64,000 bases of DNA from positions 32,081,712-32,145,711 of the forward strand of contig CM040746.1 of NCBI GenBank assembly GCA_022829145.1. The letters run 5' to 3'. Below the pieces are notes generated by a model. The model saw only the letters and a list, made by a program, of their open reading frames with translations. It ran no database searches and was not told the DNA's origin. Numbering within the stretch: the first letter of the stretch is position 1; the number at the start of each line of letters is the position of its first letter. The position numbers and the translations under genes were made by a program. Below, piece by piece: positions 4,432 to 64,000 of this stretch. This stretch comes from Albula goreensis. Its lineage: Eukaryota; Chordata; Actinopteri; Albuliformes; Albulidae.

Positions 4432-4662
4432 ACGTACACAAACACGCACATGCACAGGCATACACACACATACACGCACACACTTATGTACACGCACATG
4501 CACAGGCATACACACACATACACCACACACTTATGTACACGCACATGCACAGGCATACACACACATACACGCACACACTTATGTACACGCACATGCACAG
4601 GCATACACACAAATGCACAAGCGCACACACACACACACACACATATACGCATACACAGTTAG
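4432..4662. repeat. CA-rich minisatellite, unit about 50-60 bp
   Basis: Four copies of a unit built from acgcacatgcacaggcatac, CA repeats and acttatgtac, ending in a purer (CA) tract. Confidence 0.9.
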
Positions 4663-8209: not shown

Positions 8210-8815
8210 CACAACCCCCCCCAACAGTCCAAATGCAAAGCACAGACCCCCTTCATTCAGAGAAACAACACTCCAAACGCAAAGCACAAACCCCCCCCTT
8301 CATTCAGAGAAACAACACTCCAAACGCAGAGCACAGACTACCCCCCCCCTCCATTCAGAGAACCATCACTCCTAACGCAAAGCACAGACCCCCCCCCTTC
8401 ATTCAGAGAAACAACGCTCCAAACACAAAGCACAGACCCCCCCCATTCAGAGAACCATCACTCCTAACGCAGAGCACAAACCCCCCTTCATTCAGAGAAC
8501 CATCACACCTAACGCAATTCAGAGAACACAGACCAGACCCCCCTTCATTCAGAGAAACAACGCTCCAAACACAAAGCACAGCCCCCCATTCAGAGAACCA
8601 TCACTCCTAACGCAGAGCACAGACTCCCCCCATTCAGAGAACCATCACTCCTAACGCAAAGCACAGACTACCCCCCCTTCATTCAGAGAACCATCACTCC
8701 TAACGCAGAGCACAGACTACCCCCTTCATTCAGAGAACCATCACACCAAACACAAAGCACAGACCCCCCATTCAGAGAACCATCACTCCTAACGCAAAGC
8801 ACAGACTCCTCCCCT
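8210..8815. repeat. Minisatellite, about 13 units of 40-52 bp
   Basis: The unit is cattcagaga plus a variable middle, agcacaga and a C-run of 3-9. Two monomer types alternate irregularly: AAACAACACTCCAAACGC and ACCATCACTCCTAACGC. C-run length varies between units, so the array is expected to be length-polymorphic. Confidence 0.95.
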
Positions 8816-9110
8816 TCATTCTGACCTCAGAGACTCCACACATAAGGATAAAGCACTGACCACCTATTTACTCAGAGAGCGGAGACTCGAAACATTTCTC
8901 ATAAAAGGGCACTAGCTTTCTCATATAGGGCACTGAGACTCCAGGAGACCACAGCGATGGCCTGTTTATTTATGGAACTCAAATGATCTCCACAAAGCAC
9001 TGACCACCTCTTTATGTTAGGCACTAACACTCCCATAAGAATGCACTGACAGCTTACTTAGGACACCAAGACTCTCTGTAGATGGTGCAGACCACATCCT
9101 CCTTATGGAG
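8816..9110. repeat. Decayed outer part of the same minisatellite
   Basis: Degenerate motifs such as aaagcactgaccacct, aggcactaacactcc and gggcactgagactcc recur every 50-70 bp. They look like older, unhomogenised units flanking the young array. Confidence 0.5.
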
Positions 9111-10130: not shown

Positions 10131-13976
<3,846 letters not shown>

Positions 13977-42469: not shown

Positions 42470-43756
<1,287 letters not shown>

Positions 43757-51145: not shown

Positions 51146-51151
51146 TTTATT
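51146..51151 (-). promoter_or_regulatory. Possible tent5d polyadenylation signal AATAAA
   Basis: The first AATAAA on the minus strand after the stop codon lies about 90 nt downstream. Further ones occur at 50987-50992 and 50214-50219. Family 3' UTRs are often longer than 90 nt, so the distal sites may be preferred. Confidence 0.3.
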
Positions 51152-51241: not shown

Positions 51242-54163
51242 CTACACCAGGCCAGTCTGCATGTGAATATGAAGAGGGTAAGGCTGGTAAAAGAGTGGAG
51301 GCTGGCCATGGGCGATGTAGTAGTTGTTGAAGCTGTGGTCGGTCATGTAGGGAGCTGGCTGATAGTAGCAGGTGACGTTGGTGGTGTTGGGGATGATGTT
51401 TTGCTCTCCCAGCACCTTGAGGGCCAGGACGGTGATCATGTTGAGAGTCTGGCGGCGCTCATGGCCCATCAGGCACACCGTACTCTCATTGACGACCCTC
51501 CTGAGGGTCATCAGGTAGTCATACTTGCTCTTCTCCTCGCCGATGAAGTGGTTGCGCAGGTAGGACTCGATCTTGCGCTGCTGCTCGTTGACGTCGGGGA
51601 AGTCGATGAAGAAGCGTGAGCACATGTAACGCTCCAGAGTCTTTATCTCTGTCTCGCTGGCCGGCTTGAACTCCCGCACCAGCAGGTTGCTGTACTTCAG
51701 CAGGCCGCCCCCTCTGATCTCCTCTGGGTTGCGTGTGGCAATCAGCCGGTACCGCAGGTGGTCCATAGCCTGCTCAAAGTCTCCGTACATGCTCTCTGCC
51801 ACCACTGTGATGGACGGCAGATCTATACTCGGCGATGTAGCCTCTTTTTCCTCATCGTGTGATGCTGCTTCCTCTTGTAGCTTCTTACACACTTCTGTAG
51901 CCTCTGGAACCTGGATATCAGTCTCCAGTATCTGCACATCCGGTTCTGATACCTGGACACCAGACTCCCTTAAATGGACATCTGGTTGTGTGACCTGGTT
52001 ATCAGATTTGAGTTCATCGACATCAGGCTCTGCTACCTGGATGCCAGATTCCTGAGCCTGAATATCGGCTTCAGGTGCTTGGAAATCTGACTCCAGTAGA
52101 TGGACATCAGGTTGTGGTAGCTGGACATCAGACTCCTGTGGCTGGGCATCAGGTTCTGGTGTACTGCTAGTTTGAGCCTGAGATGCTAGTTCAGGTGCAG
52201 GTAGTTCAGGTAGCTCTGGTCCCTGACAAGAAACTTCTGCTACAGGATCAATAGGTCCAGGTGCCTGAGCAGCAGTTTCTAACACTGGAGCTGTAGACTC
52301 TGGAAACTTGGTGATGTTGTCTGGTTCCTGGGCCATGGATTCTGGTACCAGTGAAGTAAGTTCTGATACCTGATCAGCAGGCTCTGCTATCTTTACAGCA
52401 GGCTCCAGAGCCTGAGGAGAGGGGGGCAGTATTTCCACTGTGGGAATCTGGCTGCATTGATCCTTGTCACTGAGTTGTGGGACCTCGGCTTCTGCACTCT
52501 GGGCTGTTGCCTCAAGGATTGGACTTGGTGACTCGCAAGACAGGCGTTGTGAGGATGAGGCCTGTGTTTGTGAATCTGTGCTGCTGCCAGGGAGTTCAAC
52601 AATGTCGGTTGTGGTTTGAATGTTTGAAAGTTTGTCCTGCCTGTCTTCTTGCTGTGGTGTGCTGGTTGGGGGTTCGCTGTGGTTTGTGTTAGAGCCTGAT
52701 ACTTCAACTACCATTGGTACTGATTCATCGGAGGCTGTTTTGGCATTTTCCAATCGCTGACTGATGACAGATGGCTCCTCTGGGGAGATCGTTTTTATGG
52801 GGGGCGGTACCACACTGGTTACTTTCTTTGACATTTTTCTTGGGGGTTTTGGAGAAGAATGCTTAAGCACAACCATTTGTGAGTTTTTGTAGATTTTCTT
52901 AGCAGGGGGTGGCAATGGATACTCTGTGTCCTGTGTGTCCAGAGAATGGCACGTACAGGACTGGTAAGGTGATACACACAGCACCTTAAGGGAAACTTGC
53001 CCTTCATTTGTTGTTTTCTCAAGCGGGGGCATTGAGTCAGTATTTATATCTGTTGTCTCTATGTTCACAGAATTTTCCACATTAACTTCAGTTACTGCAT
53101 TCATTGAAGTTTTCACCTCTAGAGACATCTCGTCTTGTGTGGGTGCTTCAAAGTCTCCTTTCGAAGTCTCCTCTTCCTTCTCTACAATGGATGCTGTTTC
53201 CTCTCCCCCTGCTTCTGTTGGTTTTACCTCTTGCTCCATCTCCTCCCATGCCTCTGGCTCCAGGGCTGGCGCTGTAGTGCTTGTTTCTGTTGCCTCCTCC
53301 ACCTCTGTCATTTCCTCCATGTCCACTGTCTCTGTGACAGGTTCTTCGGTCAGACATGATGGCTCTTCCTCCCTCATCTCCACCCCTTTGCAAGGGCTGT
53401 CACTGGAGCCTGTTGTGACCTCTGGGCTGCCTGGCAGGTCTTCATCTTGACTCTGAGGTTTATCCAGCTCCTGGGAGGTTGAGGGCACCTCTGCTGGAGC
53501 TACCTGTGGCTGGCTGGTGCTCTGGCCCTGAGGAGAAGCCTTCTCCTCTGGCCTCTCGCGCCGCAGCCCCTGCCTCCTCTCAGCCTCCAGGTAAGACTCC
53601 AGCATGCGGTCCAGAATGATCTGGAAAGAGTCCACGCTGAACTCAAACTGCCGGCGCAGGGAGTTGACGAACTTGAGCTCCACATTCTTGCCGCTGTTAT
53701 TGGACAGGGAGATGAGGCTCCAGCGGTCATGTTCGGTGAAGACCTTCACCATCTTCTGAACGTAGGCCTCCTTCATGGTCAGGGCGGTGATCTTGTCCTT
53801 GTTGACTCCGCTGGGCAGGAAGTCCAGGAGGCAGCGCAGTACCACCTCCTTGATGATCTGGAAGTCCTCCTGTTTGGGCAGCTCCACCCCAAAGATAATG
53901 TCCAGGTCCTTGTAGCTGGTGCCATTCTCCTTGACCAGCACATGGCTCGCGGTGGAGCCATTGAGACGCACGTCCCGCACCTTGATCTCCTTCTCCCTCA
54001 GTTTGTCCCTCACCATGTGGATGATGTCCTTGGGCTTCACCTCCAAAGTGGGGAAGTTGCCCCGCCCATGAATGGGGATGACCTCTGTAAGGACCTGGTC
54101 CAAGGTCTGGACCTGCTCCTGGGTCAGGCTGTGGAACCGGCGGTCAGTGCTGAGCTCTGTCAT
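51242..54163 (-). CDS. tent5d: TENT5D-type non-canonical poly(A) polymerase with a giant internal insertion
   Basis: Seen: a 973-residue open frame. Residues 10-190 carry the TENT5 nucleotidyltransferase core: IPIHGRGNFPTLE (29-41), the LNGS turn (67-70), the catalytic pair D86/D88 in YKDLDIIFGVELP, and a third acidic residue E162 in NVELKFV. Residues 786-973 carry the remaining conserved part: VAESMYGDF, NPEEIRGGGLLKY, ERYMCSRFFIDFPD, VNESTVCLMGHERRQTLN and CYYQPAPY. Family knowledge: TENT5 (FAM46) proteins add poly(A) to mRNAs, and mammalian TENT5D is testis-biased and needed for sperm production. The D assignment rests on remembered D-like wording (EVKPKDIIH, IFGVELP, VVAESMYGDF, NHFIGE, LKVLGE). 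Odd: residues 196-785 replace a linker of about 15-20 residues, against a usual family length near 390. Start: ATG at 54163 lies 17 nt inside the exon, and joining to the candidate 5' exon gives an in-frame TAG upstream with no intervening ATG. All catalytic residues are present, so activity is likely. The paralogue letter is less certain than the family. Confidence 0.95.
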   Translation of the reverse strand: MTELSTDRRFHSLTQEQVQTLDQVLTEVIPIHGRGNFPTLEVKPKDIIHMVRDKLREKEIKVRDVRLNGSTASHVLVKENGTSYKDLDIIFGVELPKQEDFQIIKEVVLRCLLDFLPSGVNKDKITALTMKEAYVQKMVKVFTEHDRWSLISLSNNSGKNVELKFVNSLRRQFEFSVDSFQIILDRMLESYLEAERRQGLRRERPEEKASPQGQSTSQPQVAPAEVPSTSQELDKPQSQDEDLPGSPEVTTGSSDSPCKGVEMREEEPSCLTEEPVTETVDMEEMTEVEEATETSTTAPALEPEAWEEMEQEVKPTEAGGEETASIVEKEEETSKGDFEAPTQDEMSLEVKTSMNAVTEVNVENSVNIETTDINTDSMPPLEKTTNEGQVSLKVLCVSPYQSCTCHSLDTQDTEYPLPPPAKKIYKNSQMVVLKHSSPKPPRKMSKKVTSVVPPPIKTISPEEPSVISQRLENAKTASDESVPMVVEVSGSNTNHSEPPTSTPQQEDRQDKLSNIQTTTDIVELPGSSTDSQTQASSSQRLSCESPSPILEATAQSAEAEVPQLSDKDQCSQIPTVEILPPSPQALEPAVKIAEPADQVSELTSLVPESMAQEPDNITKFPESTAPVLETAAQAPGPIDPVAEVSCQGPELPELPAPELASQAQTSSTPEPDAQPQESDVQLPQPDVHLLESDFQAPEADIQAQESGIQVAEPDVDELKSDNQVTQPDVHLRESGVQVSEPDVQILETDIQVPEATEVCKKLQEEAASHDEEKEATSPSIDLPSITVVAESMYGDFEQAMDHLRYRLIATRNPEEIRGGGLLKYSNLLVREFKPASETEIKTLERYMCSRFFIDFPDVNEQQRKIESYLRNHFIGEEKSKYDYLMTLRRVVNESTVCLMGHERRQTLNMITVLALKVLGEQNIIPNTTNVTCYYQPAPYMTDHSFNNYYIAHGQPPLFYQPYPLHIHMQTGLV
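51809..53578 (-). other. tent5d: In-frame insertion of about 590 residues within TENT5D (residues 196-785)
   Basis: Seen: 1,770 bp of uninterrupted frame between LDRMLESY and ITVVAESMYGDF. Very few aromatic residues occur. In order: a charged start (196-215); an acidic Glu/Thr/Ser/Val-rich stretch (about 240-345); a Cys trio (C396, C403, C405); a Pro/Lys-rich basic island (418-458); a Ser/Thr/Gln-rich stretch (460-580); heptapeptide repeats (585-757); and a short acidic exit (762-772). No globular domain is recognised. Inference: it is an intrinsically disordered tether joining the two parts of the enzyme. An intron is unlikely because no stop occurs in 590 codons and the repeats are in phase with the frame. 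The one splice-like pair noticed, CAG/GTAGCT near 53503 with CACAG near 51797, would shift the frame. Confidence 0.85.
51893..52411 (-). repeat. Coding 21-bp minisatellite: about 24 heptapeptide repeats
   Basis: Residues 674-757 (51893-52144) divide into twelve consecutive heptads of the form Q-[VAL]-x-[EQ]-x-D-[VI], for example QAPEADI, QVAEPDV, QVTQPDV, QVSEPDV and QILETDI. Residues 585-673 (52145-52411) continue the seven-residue phase in degenerate form, such as IAEPADQ, VPESMAQ, FPESTAP and VLETAAQ, with a small phase slip near 662-671. Hydrophobic residues are spaced 2/5 rather than 3/4 and Pro is frequent, so a coiled coil is unlikely. An extended, acidic array is more probable. The 21-bp period keeps the frame, so copy number could vary between alleles without breaking the gene. 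Confidence 0.8.
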
Positions 54164-54180
54164 TTCACCGCTTTCTGTGT

Positions 54181-54204
54181 CTGTAAAGAGGGAGAGAGGA
54201 AAAG
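54181..54204 (-). promoter_or_regulatory. tent5d: Splice acceptor of the tent5d coding exon
   Basis: On the minus strand a pyrimidine tract (ttttcctctctccctctttacag) leads to AG at 54182-54181, and the exon begins at 54180. Only 17 nt of 5' UTR then precede the ATG. The open frame runs on upstream into the intron, which would add a spurious N-terminal extension if this acceptor were ignored. Confidence 0.8.
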
Positions 54205-54851
54205 AAAGCATTGCTTTTGAGAATTTTTTTTTTTTAGAAAACTCTTGCAAACCAAATGTGAACAAGCCTTGGGAATCGATGCCACTTTAAATATACATTT
54301 TAAATAAACCAGACTTTAAAATGTATGTAACCATCCTGGCTTCTAAGAAGTACCACATATCATAGCTGCTATGATTCAATTATTGCTGCCTTGCCATCCT
54401 TACCCCTCAACAGTACATGGGGACTGGGGTGGGGAGGGGGGGTTCAGTAAGCGCTACTGCTGTTGCTAAGTAGCTCTTAATTGTAGGGGGAAAGGCTTTC
54501 CATTGTGCAAATAAAAACAGCTCCTTATTTGTTTTGTGAAGTGAAGCAGGAGTCCGATCCACTTTTCCCCAGCAACAGGTCTGCACTGTTAAACCACCAC
54601 AGGACCATCTACCCAATCAGCCTGTTTCTTCCATGGCAAAGAAAGAAGTCACACTTGTATTGGTTCACAGCTGAGAATTTAAATTCTTTGGAATGAAATA
54701 CAGAGAAAATATTTACATGCAATTTACATTTATTCAAAGTACACAAAGTAAAAAAATATACTGATTGTAAGTATGTATTTGTGCTGTATAGGTGGGAGAA
54801 TGAGGCTTCATGACTCACCAAATGGGTGGAGCTATGACATGCCACAAAAAC

Positions 54852-54925: not shown

Positions 54926-56667
54926 AGACAGACGACGTCGTCTCCCCTACACAACCCATCCTGTTATTGTGGTTATGAGTGAGCAAGAGTCATGTTCTGT
55001 CACTAATTATTTCAGCTGTTCCTTTTTTTTTTTTTTTTAGTGATTAATATTTTGCTCAGGGTGTGTTAGTGATGCTCTTTTTCAGCGTAGAAAGCTGCAC
55101 CGGCGTCAGATCTGAGCCTGTGAAAGCCACAGTGGCACTTATCAGGACCGCAGAGAGTCGTGAAGAAAGAGCATAATGGGAGATCCAGGATGTGAATGAG
55201 AGCCAGGACAGGGCTTTATCACAGATACATCACAGCGGCACTCATACTGTCGTTAGCAATGTGTGCCATTCACTCCGTGTGTGTGAGTATCTAATGTGAC
55301 ATCCACAATCAATTCTTTTATCTCAAAACAAAATATTTAAGAGGAAAATTTAAGAAAAAAAGTTACCGGGCTGTCACAAAACCAGGGGGTGGCTGAGTGT
55401 GGGGGGCACAGACGAAATGAGAAAGTAGAGTTTAAAGCCCTCTGGTGAGTCGGAAACGAACACTGCAGTTAATCAAACATTAAAAGCGCTCAATAAATGC
55501 CACATTTTCCATACAGACCCATAAGCAGCCTTCTCTCGGCATCGGACCACTTTAAAAAGAACACATTATTCCACAGAATTCACGGACATAAGCTCTCAGA
55601 CTATGAGCTGTCACGAATTTCACAGTTTTGTCGACAAGATTGCTAATATGCTACTGTTATTGCTTTTCCCTTCCAGGAAGACGAGGAAAGAAAAAGCCAT
55701 GCCCAGAAAGGGAGACAAATTATGAATTATGTCACACAGTAGAGCCTTTTTTAAGTGGTGGAGAGGAAATATGTCCATTCTGTTGTCTGACTGATAATTG
55801 TATTTTCTTAAGGCCATGAAACAGTTAGATTTAGCAGAAGTCATAAGACTGGATTATAAGAATGATATAAAACAAATCTATATGCATACCTGAGTGTGTC
55901 AGTCAGTCCATCAGAAACATTAAAGTTGTTAATATTCACAATACACCAAAGTAGCAGTACGCAGATTTTACTCAGGAAATACAGATTCACACATTACAAT
56001 TTGTCATTAAACTTGTGGCCTCTTGTACAGACAACAGCCTTGTTGTGGGATAAATTCAATCAACTTAAGCAAGGTCTGAGGTGCAAGCCATTAAGGTGTA
56101 GGCTTGAGGATTACCCATAGTCAATTCCCTACACTGTTTTGAATTTCAAATATCAGCATCTTTTAGATTTTTTTTCTTGAAGTTGCAGTGAATGAGACCC
56201 CCTGTTTCTGAAGAGAAGACTGAGAATATGATATATTTATTCCTTAAAATGAACTCTACAACATAGAATTAGAAGTCAATGAAAAAAAAAGAATGAAAGT
56301 AAAAGGCCATCCCAAAACAGCTCGTATTGATTCTCTTTCCCCGGAACAAACAGGGTTAAGATGAATGACTCATTGCTAGCTCAAGGCATTAATCAGCCGA
56401 GTCATTGATGAAAAAAAAAATATATATATAGCAAGAGAGGGAGGGAAGGAGAGAGACTGGGACATTATGGGGTGGCTATATTTATTATAATTAGATAAAC
56501 ATAATCCTTCCTCTGTAAAGAAAAGTTTTCTCACTGCAGTTTTCTCTCTCTTTCCAAGAGCCATGCAATGCACATGGCCATGCACTCATGCACTTTTGTT
56601 GACAAGATGATACTTTAGACAGACAGAAGCTGTATCCATGACAATACTGCTAATCTGTCTATTTAGG

Positions 56668-56688
56668 TTTTTTTTTTTTTTTTTTTTT
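56668..56688. repeat. Poly(T) tract
   Basis: About 21 T in a row inside the tent5d intron. Confidence 0.9.
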
Positions 56689-57015
56689 ACTTGGGATGGT
56701 GGTGAATGGTTGGACACTCCTGCCAGGGCAGTGAGTCAGAAGACCCAGGTCTGCTTTCTGACTAGGTGCTTAGTTCCCTTGGCTGCAAATCCATTATGGC
56801 ATGCATTCATTTTTACCAAGAAAAGGATGGAGAAAATAGAAAAAATTGTCCCCATTATCTCATTGTGCAGCATGATGAAGTCGCCCGAAACCTGGCTTCT
56901 GCTACTCTCCTGACCCAAACTGTCACAAACATCTGCAGCATGAAAGGCCTGGATTACCGAGACAGCACTTCTCTGGAGCTTTTTGGGAAATAAAAAAGGA
57001 AATAAAGGGTTTGTC

Positions 57016-57025
57016 TCTCGCTCTC

Positions 57026-57056
<31 letters not shown>

Positions 57057-57057
57057 G
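57016..57057. repeat. (CT)n microsatellite
   Basis: About 20 CT units with two CTCG interruptions, inside the tent5d intron. Confidence 0.95.
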
Positions 57058-60000
57058 CTGCCTGTCTTTTCCTCAATATAATTTGTGCAATTTGATGTTT
57101 TCTTTTTACAACTATTTTGGTTATATCACACAAGAAGGAGCTTACAAATAACCAAAATGGTATAGTCATTATTTTTAAGTGTATTTTAGCTGTAATCACC
57201 TTTGATTTCTTACATCCTTATATTCACTTCCAGACAAATAACAACCAAAAAAAGTTACAAAAAGCTGCATTAACCAAAGGAAAATACTCACTGTTTCTCT
57301 TTTTATCCAGGCATGTACAAAAATGAACACTTATGTAACACTTTTCAAGATTTATTACATGAACATGTTTGAAAAGCAGCTTTAACATTGCATTTGTCTG
57401 TGCCAAAAATGACCAACAGAAAGTAAAAATAATTTACTCCCTGAAAGAGCTTGCAAAATCCAAAGAAAAAAACCTCTTGCTCCATGCATCACATGTTAAA
57501 CATTTTTTTGAATGTTTTTTTCTACTGCACTGTTTTCCTCACATTGCAGTATATTCAGTAGCATTTTCTTAAAGCAATCACTTGTCTAAACATTAATCAA
57601 TTATTTACAACAACCACTCTATAGAGGGCTTGGAGCTTGTCATTTTTGTTAACTGTGGCAGTATTTAGTGATGCAATAAAGAGAAGAATGCCTCCACAGT
57701 AATGGTTTTTAAGAGTGTCTTGATGCTTACAGGGGACATTTCAACAAGGAAAGGTGAAGCCTAGTTTTTGGCAGACACCTGGCAGTCATTAACTTCAAGA
57801 TCAGGGTCCAGGAAAGAAAAAGATAAAGAGATAGATATCTTCTGAGTTGGGAGAACTATTGACTAAGTTAGAACTTAATCAATAGCACGGTTCATTCTTT
57901 CAATGGTTTCAAAAGCATATGCATTCAAAAACACATATTCATGCAAAATACATAGCAAGGGACCAAATAAAGGCAAAGGAAAATTCTCTTTTATTTGGTT
58001 ATAAAAACTCAGCCCATTGCAGAATTAATCTGATAGAACAGAACTGCATTAGACTCAAACACATGTTTCTGTTAATACACTTCCCTTCTTTAAACACCAC
58101 TAGGTTTAACTGATCAGGCATGAGCTTGGCCAATGTCTGGATGTGTTTGAAGTTTGATGTCCTCCCCCCATACTTCTCTGTTCTCTGTGTTTTTCTGCTT
58201 CTGGAATGCAGACTTGCACCATCTTTCCTTGTTTTCCTTATTAGATTTGGGATATGACTTTTGTTTGTGAAATTAAGTTAAATTAATAAGAAAAAACAGT
58301 ATTCCCTTGATTTACTCTGTGTTTGGTTATATAATATATATTTTTTATTTACTCCACTATGCTCCATTCAGATCACCTCCCTAAATTTGCTTTGTTTCCT
58401 TTAGCTCCCAGAGTTACCTTAGGGTTTACCTTGGAATCCTCCACCTTCTTTATTTTCCTCTTTATCTGTAAAATTGTCTGACTTCCCACAGAACAATTAT
58501 GTGGCCACCTGACCTATTTCATTGCAAACACAACTTGGTACTCCAGCGGATTCCCCTCTCATTTTAAATTATGTTCTGAATTTTCACCATTTTCCTAGAC
58601 ATGATGTCCAGTTGGGAGTTTGTGCGGTGCCAAGGCAAATATGAATGAGACAATTATAGGGCTCCCACCTCAAGCCAGACTGGAAAGGAGATCATGAGGG
58701 TTCAAATACATTTTTCTTGTGACATGAGTGACAGATCAGAATACAGATACATTTTTGAACAAGCTGCAACATTGCCAAATTTGAAAAAAAGTACAATTCC
58801 ACTATATTTTCTGTCCTGGTTTCACCTCTCTCCCCACTCAGAGAAGAAACCTCTGTAGTCACATATCCCTGCCTGCCTATTAACAGAGCTGGTTTGGACA
58901 CACCACTCTCAGTTCCTATTGGTGGAGATATTACAAACACACCTGTTCAGCCTTTAGGTTGGCGGTGCATAGCTTTAGTTCAGTAGGGCTGCTGTGTTTG
59001 CTGCTTGTGTGTGTGTGTGTGTATGATGACAGAGAAAAAAAGAAAGAGGGAGAGAGTGAGAAAGAGAGAGATTTAGTGCATAACCGTTTAAGTTGAAGAA
59101 TCTACACCCTTTATTTCCAATGACCTGCAGACACTGGATAGGAGCAGCTATTTGTATGGTATTCGTTAGCTATTTTAAATATTCCCGTATTACCCACAGT
59201 TTTCCCTGTAGAAATTGCCACCAATCGGTTCCACACAAAAGGATACTTCTCTGCTGGACTGCTCCATTGAGTCAACAGTAAAGCTGCAGCTGCCATGAGC
59301 TCTCAGACCCACAGTTATATGAAGAGATTAATTACCATGATGATGGGGTCCACCAAATGGGTTGATTACTAATCATAGCTGCATGGCAAATGGTGTCATA
59401 ATCAATACAAATTAGCAAAAGAAAAAAAAAAAAAACATGTGTTAGAGAACATCTTCAAACAACAATTGATCATTTTAGGAGTGGGGCAAATTTGCATAAA
59501 AAAGAAATAAAAATGTCAAAACTAAAATAAACAATTAGCCTAAATATAAATTCTTATTTTAAGGCAACATATCATTGATGTCATTTATATAAAGAAATAA
59601 GAATATATGAAATAACAAAAACAAATGAATAAGACTCCAGGAGGTTAAAAAAGCCAGTCTGATAACAGGACCATGTGAGGTATTTGCACTGAAGTGTGAC
59701 TGACTTAATTAAAGTTAGCAACCATTGTTAACAGACCACTCCATTGACACAGAATCAGCTCATCAATATGTCTGCCTGCGTGTGTTCCCCTGAATCCATT
59801 TCCTGTCACCGTTCGTTAACTTGAAACAGAAACCAATCAATGTCTTCATTTTTTCCCCTGTCAAAACTATTGCCCAGACGTTCATTGTAATCACCTGAAT
59901 TTAATAGGGACCAGCCCTTTGGTAGTCAGCTGTGGCTAATTTATTTTCTATACTTGTGTTTGGATTAATGTGTGACTTTGCAGCTGTTTGACATACAATT

Positions 60001-60430
60001 ATCTAGACTTTAATTTACAACTATGGCTAAATGAGACTATTAAATTATTTTTGACACATTGTTCCATGAAAGTAGATTAGTATTAATGGAAACATATAGA
60101 CTCGGGGATGCACACAAAGGGTCTGTAATGTTTTTGTGCATTGCTGTAAATTCCATTAGTGCCAACATGTTTTTAATAGCTACTTTGTGCTTGGTTGTCT
60201 AATAGGTGAAGCACATCATATGTTTTGCAACCAAAAAAAAAACATGAGTCTGCATCCTCCATAGTTTCCAAAACATCTGAAACCACACAGATGCATTAGT
60301 CTGCAGCGAGCGCAATCCTAACAGCAGTACTCAGTCAACAAGAGGCCACGGTGATGACTGCTGCAGCACGTACGATGTGAATCTCTATTTTGCCAAAACA
60401 TTTACCACAGCATGGTAATGGTGATTCACC

Positions 60431-60615
60431 GGGGCAGTGGGGAAATGATGAGAGGCACGACTGATGACAGCAGTAGGGGAATGGTAATTAAGGAACTGGT
60501 TATCTTGTTAACAGGAGGTTGTAGGTGAATATCCAGCTGTATTAATGGATGGGGTGTAGAGTATAAGTAATGGGAGTCGGCCTGGATAAGGGCATCTGCT
60601 TCGCAAGTAAATAAT
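60431..60615 (+). mobile_element. Second SINE copy, internally deleted
   Basis: Head ggggcagtgg, box-B-like aggttgtaggt, body gaatatccagctgtattaat, tail gtcggcctggataagggcat then CTGC. Same type as 33635-33882, but the stretch between box B and the AATATCC body is missing. Confidence 0.6.
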
Positions 60616-62819
60616 TCAATGCAATGATGAATGCAAGTAATAGCTTCTGGAGCTGGCAGTGTTGCCGACACACCGCCAAGGGCCCTCTCAAAAGGAAACA
60701 CTCACCTTTATTATGTCGCCCATTTACAAGCAAGGGCTGTTTTGCAAGATGTTTTTTTCCCCTCTCTTTCTTTATTGCTATCATTTGTTTAGCGATAGAG
60801 GTTTATAGCATGTTCTTCTGGATTACGCTTCATTTCCATAAAGCAAAGCTGTTTTTTTTGTCCTATTTGAATTTTACAACCAAAATGTTTGGGAGGGAGC
60901 TGGGGGGGGGGGTGTGGTTGGGAGTTGTATTCCTTACTAAATAACTCCTCCAAAACATGTGAATAAAGTCAATACTAATCAATGTCGAACATGCTGGGTG
61001 ACTGAATGGCACTATTTTAGACTTCAGAGAGAGGAAACAGAGTAATAACTACGAAATGAGAGAGAGAAAGAGAGAGGGACAGGGAGAGAGACCTTCTAGT
61101 GACCCAGAGCTTATTAGTCTTAAGAAAAGGGGTCATGATGTGAGTGTGTTAAGAACCAAAAAATCCTATAGAAAAAGAGGTTGACTTAATTTGTAGATAC
61201 GCAAGATCCAGTCACCACATCGGCGCCAAGGGGAGATGTGGTCCTAGCCAAGACGCACAGCCTATCCTGTCAGCAGGTTTGCACGTGGCGCTGGGGATAC
61301 ATGCCAAACAGAACGATGAGCTCTCGGTTTGAACGCCACTGTTCGTGCGTCACGGTTCGTCATCGCTATTACAAGGAGAATGCCAGAGATCTCACGATCT
61401 GTGGGAAAATTAACTTAAAGATCTCTTCGGGTTTGAAATGTTGGAAATGTAGCAATGCTGCGGGATTTTTGTCTCCCCTCCATACCCTCCTCCTCCCCCT
61501 CCCCCTTTCTCGCTCACTCACTCTCTCTCAAATAAGCCTGTGTGAGTCATAGCTGGGTGAAAAAAACTGCACCCAGATGCGCTTCCCCACCTGATTTACA
61601 CCATGTTTATATAAACCGGCTTCAGATGGAAAGAGCAAAAAGAGGTATTGGTTTTTGTTTATGAATTCAACGGATCACTTTTAGACTACTAGAGTGGCGA
61701 GACCTGTCGATAATCTGATATGACTGCATTTTGCTTAAACCCAGCAAGCCCGCTGTCTTTGACAGGCAACAAACTTCACCAAGATAACAAAGGTAGCTTC
61801 GACTTTGTCCATTTTGACCTATTATTTGTTTCCAGAAGGGTGTATCACGAAACTAAGTAAAATAAACATATAAACAAATACAAATAAGGAACACTTGCAC
61901 ACACGAAAGCACACGTACAAGAGAACTTCAGTGCTGTTACGCCTACGTTTTAGGTTAATGGTGCTATAAAAATAACACAGGGACAAAATATAACCCAAAG
62001 CGTGACAACTGATTGCAGTCAAGATCATTCGTCACAAAAGTGTCAAGGGCTTGCTTTCTTTAACCTTAAAATCAAACAACGAATCGTTCGGTTGCGTGGA
62101 AGCTGTTGCCAATGTAGCAGTTAAGAGCACACTGGTACTTGTAAACAGCCATCTAATTTCAAAACAGATTTCTGGCTTATTCTGTTAATTTAATCTTCTC
62201 CGTATCATTTGGAACAATATGTCCTGGGTCGATAAAAATTAAAAAGCAAATAATTACAACGACCAACTGCATACTTGCAGAATGTAAGAACAATACATAA
62301 ACAGTATCGTGGTGTACTGAGATACAAAAAATGGACAGTTACAAATAAAAACGTTAATGTAACTGTTTAAGTAGCTACTAGCGAGCCTACATATTTCCCT
62401 TAACACACTCGTTTCGATTGTGTATGCTTATTTCAAGATATTGCATCCAAAATATACTGTTTCAATCTGTAACGACGATAAATGTTTCCAAAATAACAAC
62501 CCGAGGCCATTTCAAATAGCTACAGTGATTTGTCTGAAGTTCTTTTGATTCGCTGCTCCACTCAGAACACAGGAAGCCCCGGTTCTTCCAAAGCACCAGC
62601 CTTAATACGCACCAATAAGTATGCCGATATCCATAATCAATAACTTTCTAAAGCTGCAATTCGTTCTTTATTAAAAATGTTATGAAAATGTATGACGCAA
62701 ACTTGTTGATCATCGCTAGGTCAATTCTGTATTCACCTGAATGCCGTCACACACCTAGCAACAAGCACAGAACATGGCAGTGTAATAATAGGGGAAAAGT
62801 GTCTGGAAAAGTAACTCAC

Positions 62820-63040
62820 CTAAATATCCAACAAACTAGAAGGGCAACAAGGCGACGTTGATTGTCAGCAGGTAAGATCCGTCAGGGTCTACGGTCAGCA
62901 GGTCTTTGTCTCTGGAAGAATTCACGTGAACACGGGAAATCGCGAAGCCGGAGTTTGTGCGTGGTCGCTGTCCAGGCTGAGCGTGGTGCTGAAATGAAAC
63001 TCCTAAATATCTCGCACTGTTTTCTCTCTCAGACCCTGTA
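62820..63040 (-). other. tent5d: Candidate 5' non-coding exon of tent5d
   Basis: Minus strand: a stretch with about 16 CpGs ends in ...ggatatttag followed by the donor GTGAGT. No ATG is seen in it. Spliced to 54180 it gives an in-frame TAG (plus-strand cta near 62835-62837) seven codons before the coding-exon frame continues, so translation should begin at the ATG at 54163. The upstream (high-coordinate) limit is a guess, because the transcription start cannot be seen. Alternative: the real first exon lies elsewhere in the intron or upstream. Confidence 0.5.
62921..62930. promoter_or_regulatory. Palindromic E-box TTCACGTGAA
   Basis: A perfect 10-bp palindrome with a CACGTG core inside the candidate 5' exon. 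bHLH-Zip factors of the USF/MYC type bind this core. Short motifs of this kind also arise by chance, so support is weak. Confidence 0.25.
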
Positions 63041-63050
63041 GCGTAAACCA

Positions 63051-63064
63051 GTTTCCATGGTAAC
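63051..63064 (-). promoter_or_regulatory. RFX-type X-box at the presumed tent5d promoter
   Basis: Minus strand GTTACC-AT-GGAAAC, an inverted pair of RFX half-sites. The first half matches the GTNRCC consensus exactly and the second has one departure. It lies about 230 bp upstream of the candidate 5' exon donor. RFX factors drive ciliary and spermatid genes, which fits the testis bias of mammalian TENT5D. Regulation by RFX is inference. Confidence 0.5.
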
Positions 63065-64000
63065 CTGGCGTCACAATTTTAAGGTAGTCCACTCAGTATA
63101 CAGACAAGCCACAACAATGGGGCTTGGGTGAGCTTTAACAGGTGGGAGTCTGCCTTTCTATGTATCATTCAGTATTTTATGTTAACACCGGTATGCTCCT
63201 GCACACGAATGTAATGGGCAGGCATAACACTGTAAAATGAATGCATTTCTGCACCTTGTTTCACAAAGCGATCTGTCATAGTGCGTTTTCCGCTCCACGA
63301 AACTGACAAATGGACTGATTCGATTAAACATTTGCTGTCTACATAGAAGTAATTACTTGTGTAGCCAGAACAATATTTGTGTCCTTTTTTCACGTACAGT
63401 TACATTGTCCCTTTTCAAAAACTGCTTTATAATATGAAAATATGATGACTTCCTCTGGTAGAGCTTATAATTATCAGCAAAATCGTTATTAAAACAAAAA
63501 CCGTAATTATGATAATACTTATTACAACGATAATTACATACTTACACAACTTTTAGGCGATTAGCACCAAACACATCAGAATTTCGGTGAAAAATAAGAA
63601 TGTTGAAGAATGTCCTGAGACGTTGGACTGGGACTGCTGGTTCTTTAAGTGCCTCCCCATCAGGTTCTCAGAGGACGGACATGGCTGCAGCAGGGCTCAG
63701 GAGCGCCCGACGCTGTCCCACAGGTGGGAATTCAGTGTTGTGTCATCGTGCGAAGTGTGCCTAAGCCACATCACAGGGTTATCGAGTTCACTGAAACAGC
63801 AAGTCTCCAGGGACCCGGTCCGCCCATGTGCACAAAGGCCTGCAACATCACCGCCACCACTTGGACTTTGAAATCGAACCTTTTGGATGGAAGTTTGTTT
63901 TTGCTTTGCCTGACTCTTAAGTATGGGAAATCATGCATTGGCAATCATGACACTTGCCTGGAGAAAACGTAGCAGCAGTAATAACAATGAAGAACATTAT
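63065..64000. other. Region upstream of tent5d
   Basis: Single-copy, AT-rich in the middle (63410-63560). A 94-codon plus-strand frame (63587-63871) has no recognised domain. No gene is called. Confidence 0.35.

Follow-up and report, generated by a model that had tools for sequence, protein, structure and literature searches.

A long coding insert with a conserved motif between the two parts of a TENT5D gene in the fish Albula goreensis

Secretory and germ-cell mRNAs receive longer tails from TENT5 (FAM46) enzymes, and how these enzymes are targeted is treated as an active question (PMC13291444, PMC11193744). For human TENT5D, both FNDC3 binding and localization at the endoplasmic reticulum (ER) have been assigned to the C-terminal region (PMC13291444). 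In stickleback, Fam46d has been reported as differentially expressed in the brain (PMC4569571), so that a testis-only role should not be assumed in fishes. Here we describe a TENT5D gene of Albula goreensis, located in a 64,000-nucleotide stretch of contig CM040746.1 (assembly GCA_022829145.1, positions 32,081,712 to 32,145,711; "the window" below), in which the linker between the nucleotidyltransferase (NTase) and helical parts is replaced by a coding insert of 594 residues. An insert occupies the same place in a duplicate of the gene elsewhere in the genome, the two inserts share an invariant 19-residue motif, and the window copy carries an array of heptads.

The closest described relatives are human TENT5D (FAM46D), with a linker of 13 residues, and the TENT5 family (PF07984) as a whole. 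The window protein shares with human TENT5D the NTase and helical parts, the catalytic acids, a D-like tail and a common group in the tree; the differences are the linker (13 versus 594 residues) and the conserved basic motif and heptad array, which belong to the window protein. The length of the human sequence (389 residues) and its residues D210, I289 and F355 agree with landmarks given in PMC13291444. Another human tailing nucleotidyltransferase, TUT1 (U6 TUTase), is described as having its palm domain interrupted midway by a proline-rich insert predicted to be disordered, but TUT1 is not a TENT5 protein, and the region comprises 70 residues (235-304) at another place in the fold (PMC5467268). 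Periaxin offers a likeness of a different kind, as a scaffold protein with a disordered region of acidic repeats (PMC6465933). Among the matches listed in our literature search, whose scope leaves out most subscription papers, no description of such an insert in a TENT5/FAM46 protein was found.

The window gene and its insert

An open frame at 51242..54286 on the minus strand, as are all features of the gene given below, encodes a TENT5 protein without interruption; counted from the Met codon at 54163, which is likely the start codon, to the stop at 51242, the coding sequence (51242..54163) lies in one exon and specifies 973 residues. Pfam family NTP_transf_7 (PF07984) matches two stretches over the NTase and helical parts (E 3.3e-156), and a PDB search returned six distinct TENT5 sequences, each at E 2.3e-72 or better. 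Two TENT5C chains and one TENT5B chain of solved structures align inside residues 6-191 and 783-956, and a TENT5A chain matches as well (the PDB alignments are numbered with an offset of 34 residues preceding the Met; positions here are counted from the Met). BLASTP comparison with TENT5D places the homology at residues 9-191 and 786-972. Residues D86, D88 and E162, which are the catalytic acids in this family, are present inside conserved aligned blocks, numbered as in an earlier note made from the letters of this stretch, which had also stated that the TENT5 blocks are kept. By its PF07984 domain and the D, D, E acids the protein is a member of the TENT5/FAM46 family, with predicted poly(A) polymerase activity.

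The NTase part (residues 1-191, 53591..54163) is followed by a gap in homology of 594 residues (192-785, 51809..53590) with disorder-like composition, after which the helical part (residues 786-973, 51245..51808) resumes and ends in a C-terminal tail of the TENT5D type. The N-terminal homology ends at residue 191 in the BLASTP alignment (199 against TENT5B) and resumes at 786, so that the earlier placement of the insert at 51809-53578 was right to within a few codons. Thus, the compact size and short NTase-helical linker that are common in TENT5 proteins, without defining them, are absent here.

The insert has no stop in the coding frame over 591 codons (51806-53578), as compared with 24, 34, 28, 16 and 21 in the other five frames; first-order Markov simulations of the insert (n=2000) gave 24.7 stops on average and never fewer than 11. 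Over the 390 codons preceding the heptads (196-585), base composition by codon position yields a chi2 of 64.3, the highest value among 52 equal-sized control pieces of the window being 13.7, with sub-pieces weak on their own (p 0.087 for 381-470, which contains the conserved motif, and p 0.012 for 471-585). Since both the stop-free run and the codon-position composition are far beyond the controls, the insert is coding and not a product of chance. The strongest evidence of its coding state is the comparison with the duplicate gene.

Related genes, the twin copy and the conserved motif

Two queries were run against the window's own genome (932 Mb, 208 contigs): the NTase part and a stretch of 91 residues surrounding the motif. 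From the first came 13 matches on eight contigs, which we read as eight TENT5 genes. In an 11-row tree these form four pairs, named here by contig: the window copy (C6) with C2, C5 with C21, C10 with C3, and C20 with C7, an arrangement that fits the teleost genome duplication. The window/C2 pair groups with human TENT5D (support 98/97; the human row has a long branch, 0.44), in line with the TENT5D identity proposed earlier, and the C5/C21 pair groups with TENT5C (99/97). The C10/C3 and C20/C7 pairs fall with TENT5B in one group; presumably they are TENT5B and TENT5A. By plain identity the C part of the window protein is nearer to TENT5C (80.7% over 150 residues) than to human TENT5D (66.5% over 188, tail included), so that it is the tree and the D-like tail that support the D assignment. 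BLASTP shows this tail to be kept; FNDC3 binding and ER localization through it are properties of the human protein. Both TENT5D copies carry the insert, and in all six of the non-D TENT5 genes the reading frames at the equivalent place indicate a short linker.

Window and C2 copies are identical at 90.6% of positions in the N part (dN 0.053, dS 0.92; nonsynonymous and synonymous divergence) and 93.6% in the C part (dN 0.040, dS 1.18), and between them the core is under purifying selection. The C2 insert (locus L009) reads as 272 residues in one frame and, past a frame change, as up to 151 more in the frame that the helical part uses, about 400 in total; the earlier statement that the insert has neither stop nor frameshift therefore holds for the window copy and not for its twin. 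In their first parts the two inserts can be aligned (283 columns, 32% identity; E 2e-23 without composition and low-complexity filters).

Within this weakly similar region stands one basic, proline-rich motif, MVVLKHSSPKPPRKMSKKV (residues 430-448, 52820..52876), which is identical at all 19 positions in the C2 twin although its 57 bases differ by 11 synonymous changes, with no nonsynonymous one. In a second alignment with 260 ungapped columns, of which 93 are identical, it forms the one run of 19; the longest identical run in 20000 column shuffles was 13. The proportions of nonsynonymous and synonymous differences (pN/pS) are 0/0.87 in the motif, 0.23/0.68 at residues 416-429, 0.49/0.68 at 196-415, and 0.57/0.75 at 449-480, a pattern which indicates that selection bears on a short peptide and far less on what surrounds it. 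With the 91-residue region as a query, the only genome matches at E <= 0.001 were the two TENT5D genes (2 of 12 candidates scored). In the window copy 238 residues separate the motif from the NTase part and 337 separate it from the helical part; in the C2 copy the spacing on the NTase side is comparable (218). The motif holds a class II SH3-like PKPPRK and, before an SP site, a stretch resembling mitogen-activated protein kinase (MAPK) docking sites; both patterns are permissive, and shuffling predicts about 0.5 and 0.6 matches per insert, respectively.

It is conceivable, though rather unlikely, that the growth was mostly neutral, a permissive loop having gathered disordered, repeat-prone sequence that was tolerated and has no function beyond sparing the fold. 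The fast evolution of the insert outside the motif, as at residues 196-415, speaks for this, and so does TUT1, which is reported to retain 96% of its kcat/Km in vitro after removal of its predicted disordered proline-rich region (PMC5467268). The fixation of the 19-residue motif in spite of its 11 synonymous changes speaks against it.

Both copies show a mosaic of third-position GC content (GC3) within one exon. In the window copy, GC3 falls sharply from 0.86 in the NTase part to 0.72 at residues 192-230 and 0.34-0.47 over the remaining insert, and is back at 0.82 in the helical part; the best change-points lie at residues 218 and 781. The C2 copy shows 0.78, 0.40, 0.38 and 0.76. Since the mosaics are alike, the contrast probably predates the duplication.

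We give little credence to the possibility that the insert is wholly or partly an in-frame intron (exitron) and that a shorter protein is the main product. The best in-frame splice pair (score 10.4) would remove residues 221-584, with a donor of 2.4 (96th percentile) next to the GC3 change-point at residue 218 and an acceptor of 8.0 (the 99th percentile being 5.6), and the C2 copy has a strong donor (6.6) directly past the motif, with mediocre acceptors beyond, the best frame-compatible one (0.1) being at L009 6678. However, an equally good or better pair was found in 10 of 32 same-strand control pieces, so that the scan speaks neither for nor against an isoform made by the pair at 221-584, and the stretch it would remove includes the peptide conserved at the protein level. 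An intron spanning the entire insert is not supported, as no good in-frame pair exists at the insert borders.

Composition of the insert and the heptad array

E, S, P, T, Q and V abound in the insert and aromatic residues are few; it has 117 acidic and 38 basic residues and an isoelectric point (pI) of about 4.1. Among the fifty-residue blocks covering residues 201-800, 10 of 12 have a FoldIndex of -0.06 or lower, and a single-sequence AlphaFold2 model draws no helix or strand between residues 200 and 755, with a mean predicted local distance difference test score (pLDDT) of 36 and 17 residues at 70 or above. The disorder suggested in the earlier note agrees with this composition, and in the cell the insert is probably disordered. 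Neither the insert nor the heptad array matched any Pfam family or PDB sequence at E up to 10, and no relatives of the insert were confirmed among IMG/VR contigs or GTDB genomes, which as viral and prokaryotic collections are uninformative for fishes. Simple patterns for FFAT, PAM2, LIR, PPxY and eIF4E-binding sites have no match in the insert; permissive ones do, namely PxxP (8), [ST]P (12), CK2 (16), SUMO-interacting (3), and one each resembling a nuclear localization signal, a TQT motif and a 14-3-3 site.

The strong acidity (pI 4.1) could also be taken to mean that the tether restricts, in cis, the access of RNA to the cleft between the lobes (autoinhibition), as an electrostatic shield or a mimic of RNA, the basic motif then being a counter-ion or a patch that binds RNA. 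FAM46 is reported to be inhibited by a partner, BCCIP-alpha, wedged into this cleft (PMC10075960). We regard this as distinctly unlikely, given that the acidity is not kept throughout the C2 twin, with net charges of -6 over 272 residues in the part before the frame change and -21 over 151 in the part after it, and that a contact with the cleft is without structural support.

Towards its C-terminal end, past the motif, the window insert contains 22 heptads with the consensus PEPDVQV (DNA CCA GAG CCT GAT GTC CAG GTA). They form two blocks: block 1 has ten 21-bp units (residues 586-655, 52199..52408), and block 2 has twelve, with a 14-residue higher order (residues 669-752, 51908..52159). Tandem Repeats Finder (TRF) reports a 42-bp unit in 6.1 copies at 51903-52160. 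Self-identity over the whole insert exceeds that of shuffles at lags 7, 14, 21 and 28 (z 5.1, 6.4, 3.2 and 6.3), and the block-2 profile scores best on block 1 in the predicted phase, with 0 of 2000 shuffles equalling it. In the C2 insert we found no excess at lag 7 (z 0.5 and 0.1) or at lag 14; the array has therefore either grown in the window copy or been lost from the twin after the duplication. The absence of detectable heptads from the twin would suit neutral growth of the insert. The twelve heptads of block 2 fit it less well, as pN (0.33) is below pS (0.59), a ratio of 0.565 that was matched or undercut in 31 of 1000 column permutations; for all 22 heptads pN/pS is 0.45/0.61, i.e. the constraint is apparently weaker than in block 2. 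The heptads resemble AHNAK repeats. Homology to periaxin or AHNAK was not found in the Pfam and PDB searches of the insert and array described above.

A repeat-like insertion was also noted in another TENT5 gene of this genome. The second TENT5C-like gene (G000:C21, L011 3436-4056) has 28 additional residues inside the NTase part, before FQLVRD, with the frame continuous. They read as four seven-residue units, LQPQEVG PQPHEMG VQFHEAP FQPPDTG, and the insertion may be taken as a second heptad-like expansion.

A docking tether, and the surroundings of the gene

Docking sites usually take the form of a fixed motif on a variable spacer. On balance, and with confidence only a little better than even, we favour the view that the insert is a translated, variable, probably disordered tether of about 590 residues, attached to a normal polymerase core and carrying a single conserved motif for docking. 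The linker between the NTase and helical parts of a TENT5D poly(A) polymerase would have grown into this tether. As the insert leaves from that linker, the core is expected to work normally, and should fold and tail RNA much like other TENT5 enzymes. The selected content of the tether would be mainly the motif at residues 430-448, the most likely role of which is to dock a partner protein that steers or regulates the enzyme, while the remainder would serve as a spacer free to diverge and to vary in length. In the window copy, the C-terminal part of the spacer would have been lengthened through 21-bp tandem duplication.

The earlier note had proposed a flexible tether recruiting RNA, ER or germ-granule partners. 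Its tether, with a selected site in it, agrees with our results; recruitment to ER or germ granules does not gain from them, as none of the FFAT, PAM2, LIR or PPxY patterns occurs. The insert is not needed to explain ER targeting, which the C-terminal region of human TENT5D is reported to achieve through FNDC3 (PMC13291444). The evidence does not reach as far as a scaffold-like enzyme, the term used in the same note. That first inspection had missed the conserved motif, the heptad array and the twin gene with its insert.

Several points weigh against the docking tether. It is based on genome sequence, from one genome and one pair of duplicates, and the conservation of the motif is a single comparison of two copies; as one species was compared, the insert may be narrowly distributed or widespread. 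The C2 copy changes frame within its insert, at L009 6291-6343, with both flanks conserved. This may be an assembly error, a sign of splicing or a recent lesion showing that loss of the full-length form is tolerated, and all three explanations are kept, because the helical part of C2 is still strongly conserved. Past the motif no convincing alignment of the two inserts is obtained, since the C2 stretch beyond the frame change finds just weak matches in the window insert (E 0.001 or weaker, filters off), and the splice donor directly after the C2 motif belongs on the same side. With regard to disorder, the two blocks at 551-650 have FoldIndex values near zero (0.01 and 0.02), and the AlphaFold2 model does not discriminate, because most of the core has low pLDDT too.

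A more specific and clearly more tentative proposal is that of a docked enzyme in this lineage: a motif on a long tether between the halves of the core might place the polymerase under the control of a partner, by a route apart from the FNDC3-binding tail and with a tether length tunable by changes in the number of 21-bp repeats. An SH3 protein or a proline-directed kinase could be such a partner, for instance, since PKPPRK and KxxKxxxMVV before S437-P fit the permissive patterns for these.

A natural TENT5D with a 594-residue tether and a selected 19-residue motif provides a concrete peptide with which to look for a new TENT5 partner, besides being a neat example of a fixed motif in a fast-evolving spacer. 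It also suggests that the NTase-helical linker can accept very large inserts, which would be useful for building tethered tailing enzymes. If the insert predates the genome-wide duplication, many fishes should carry it, and it may already stand uncommented in public gene models.

As to the ends of the gene, a probable splice acceptor of an intron in the 5' untranslated region lies at 54181..54200 (score 10.7 from a consensus matrix; background percentile 100.0). The Met codon at 54163 was taken as the start because of this very strong acceptor just upstream, with which the exon would probably begin 17 nt before the ATG. The first AATAAA 3' of the stop codon is at 51146..51151. Elsewhere in the window we recognized no further gene: none of 10 chosen open reading frames (of 347 of at least 60 residues) in the regions 1-48000 and 55000-64000 was above the Pfam cut-off, with two weak matches below it (HTH_7, E 0.072, at 11482-11793; Nodulin_N, E 0.0035, at 42939-43622), and Rfam gave no match at its gathering threshold. 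The impression is one of gene-poor surroundings, short exons not having been searched for. The window also holds a minisatellite at 8221-8821 (unit of about 44 bp, 12.9 copies), an array of 48-bp units at 4442-4618 and numerous long arrays of dinucleotides.

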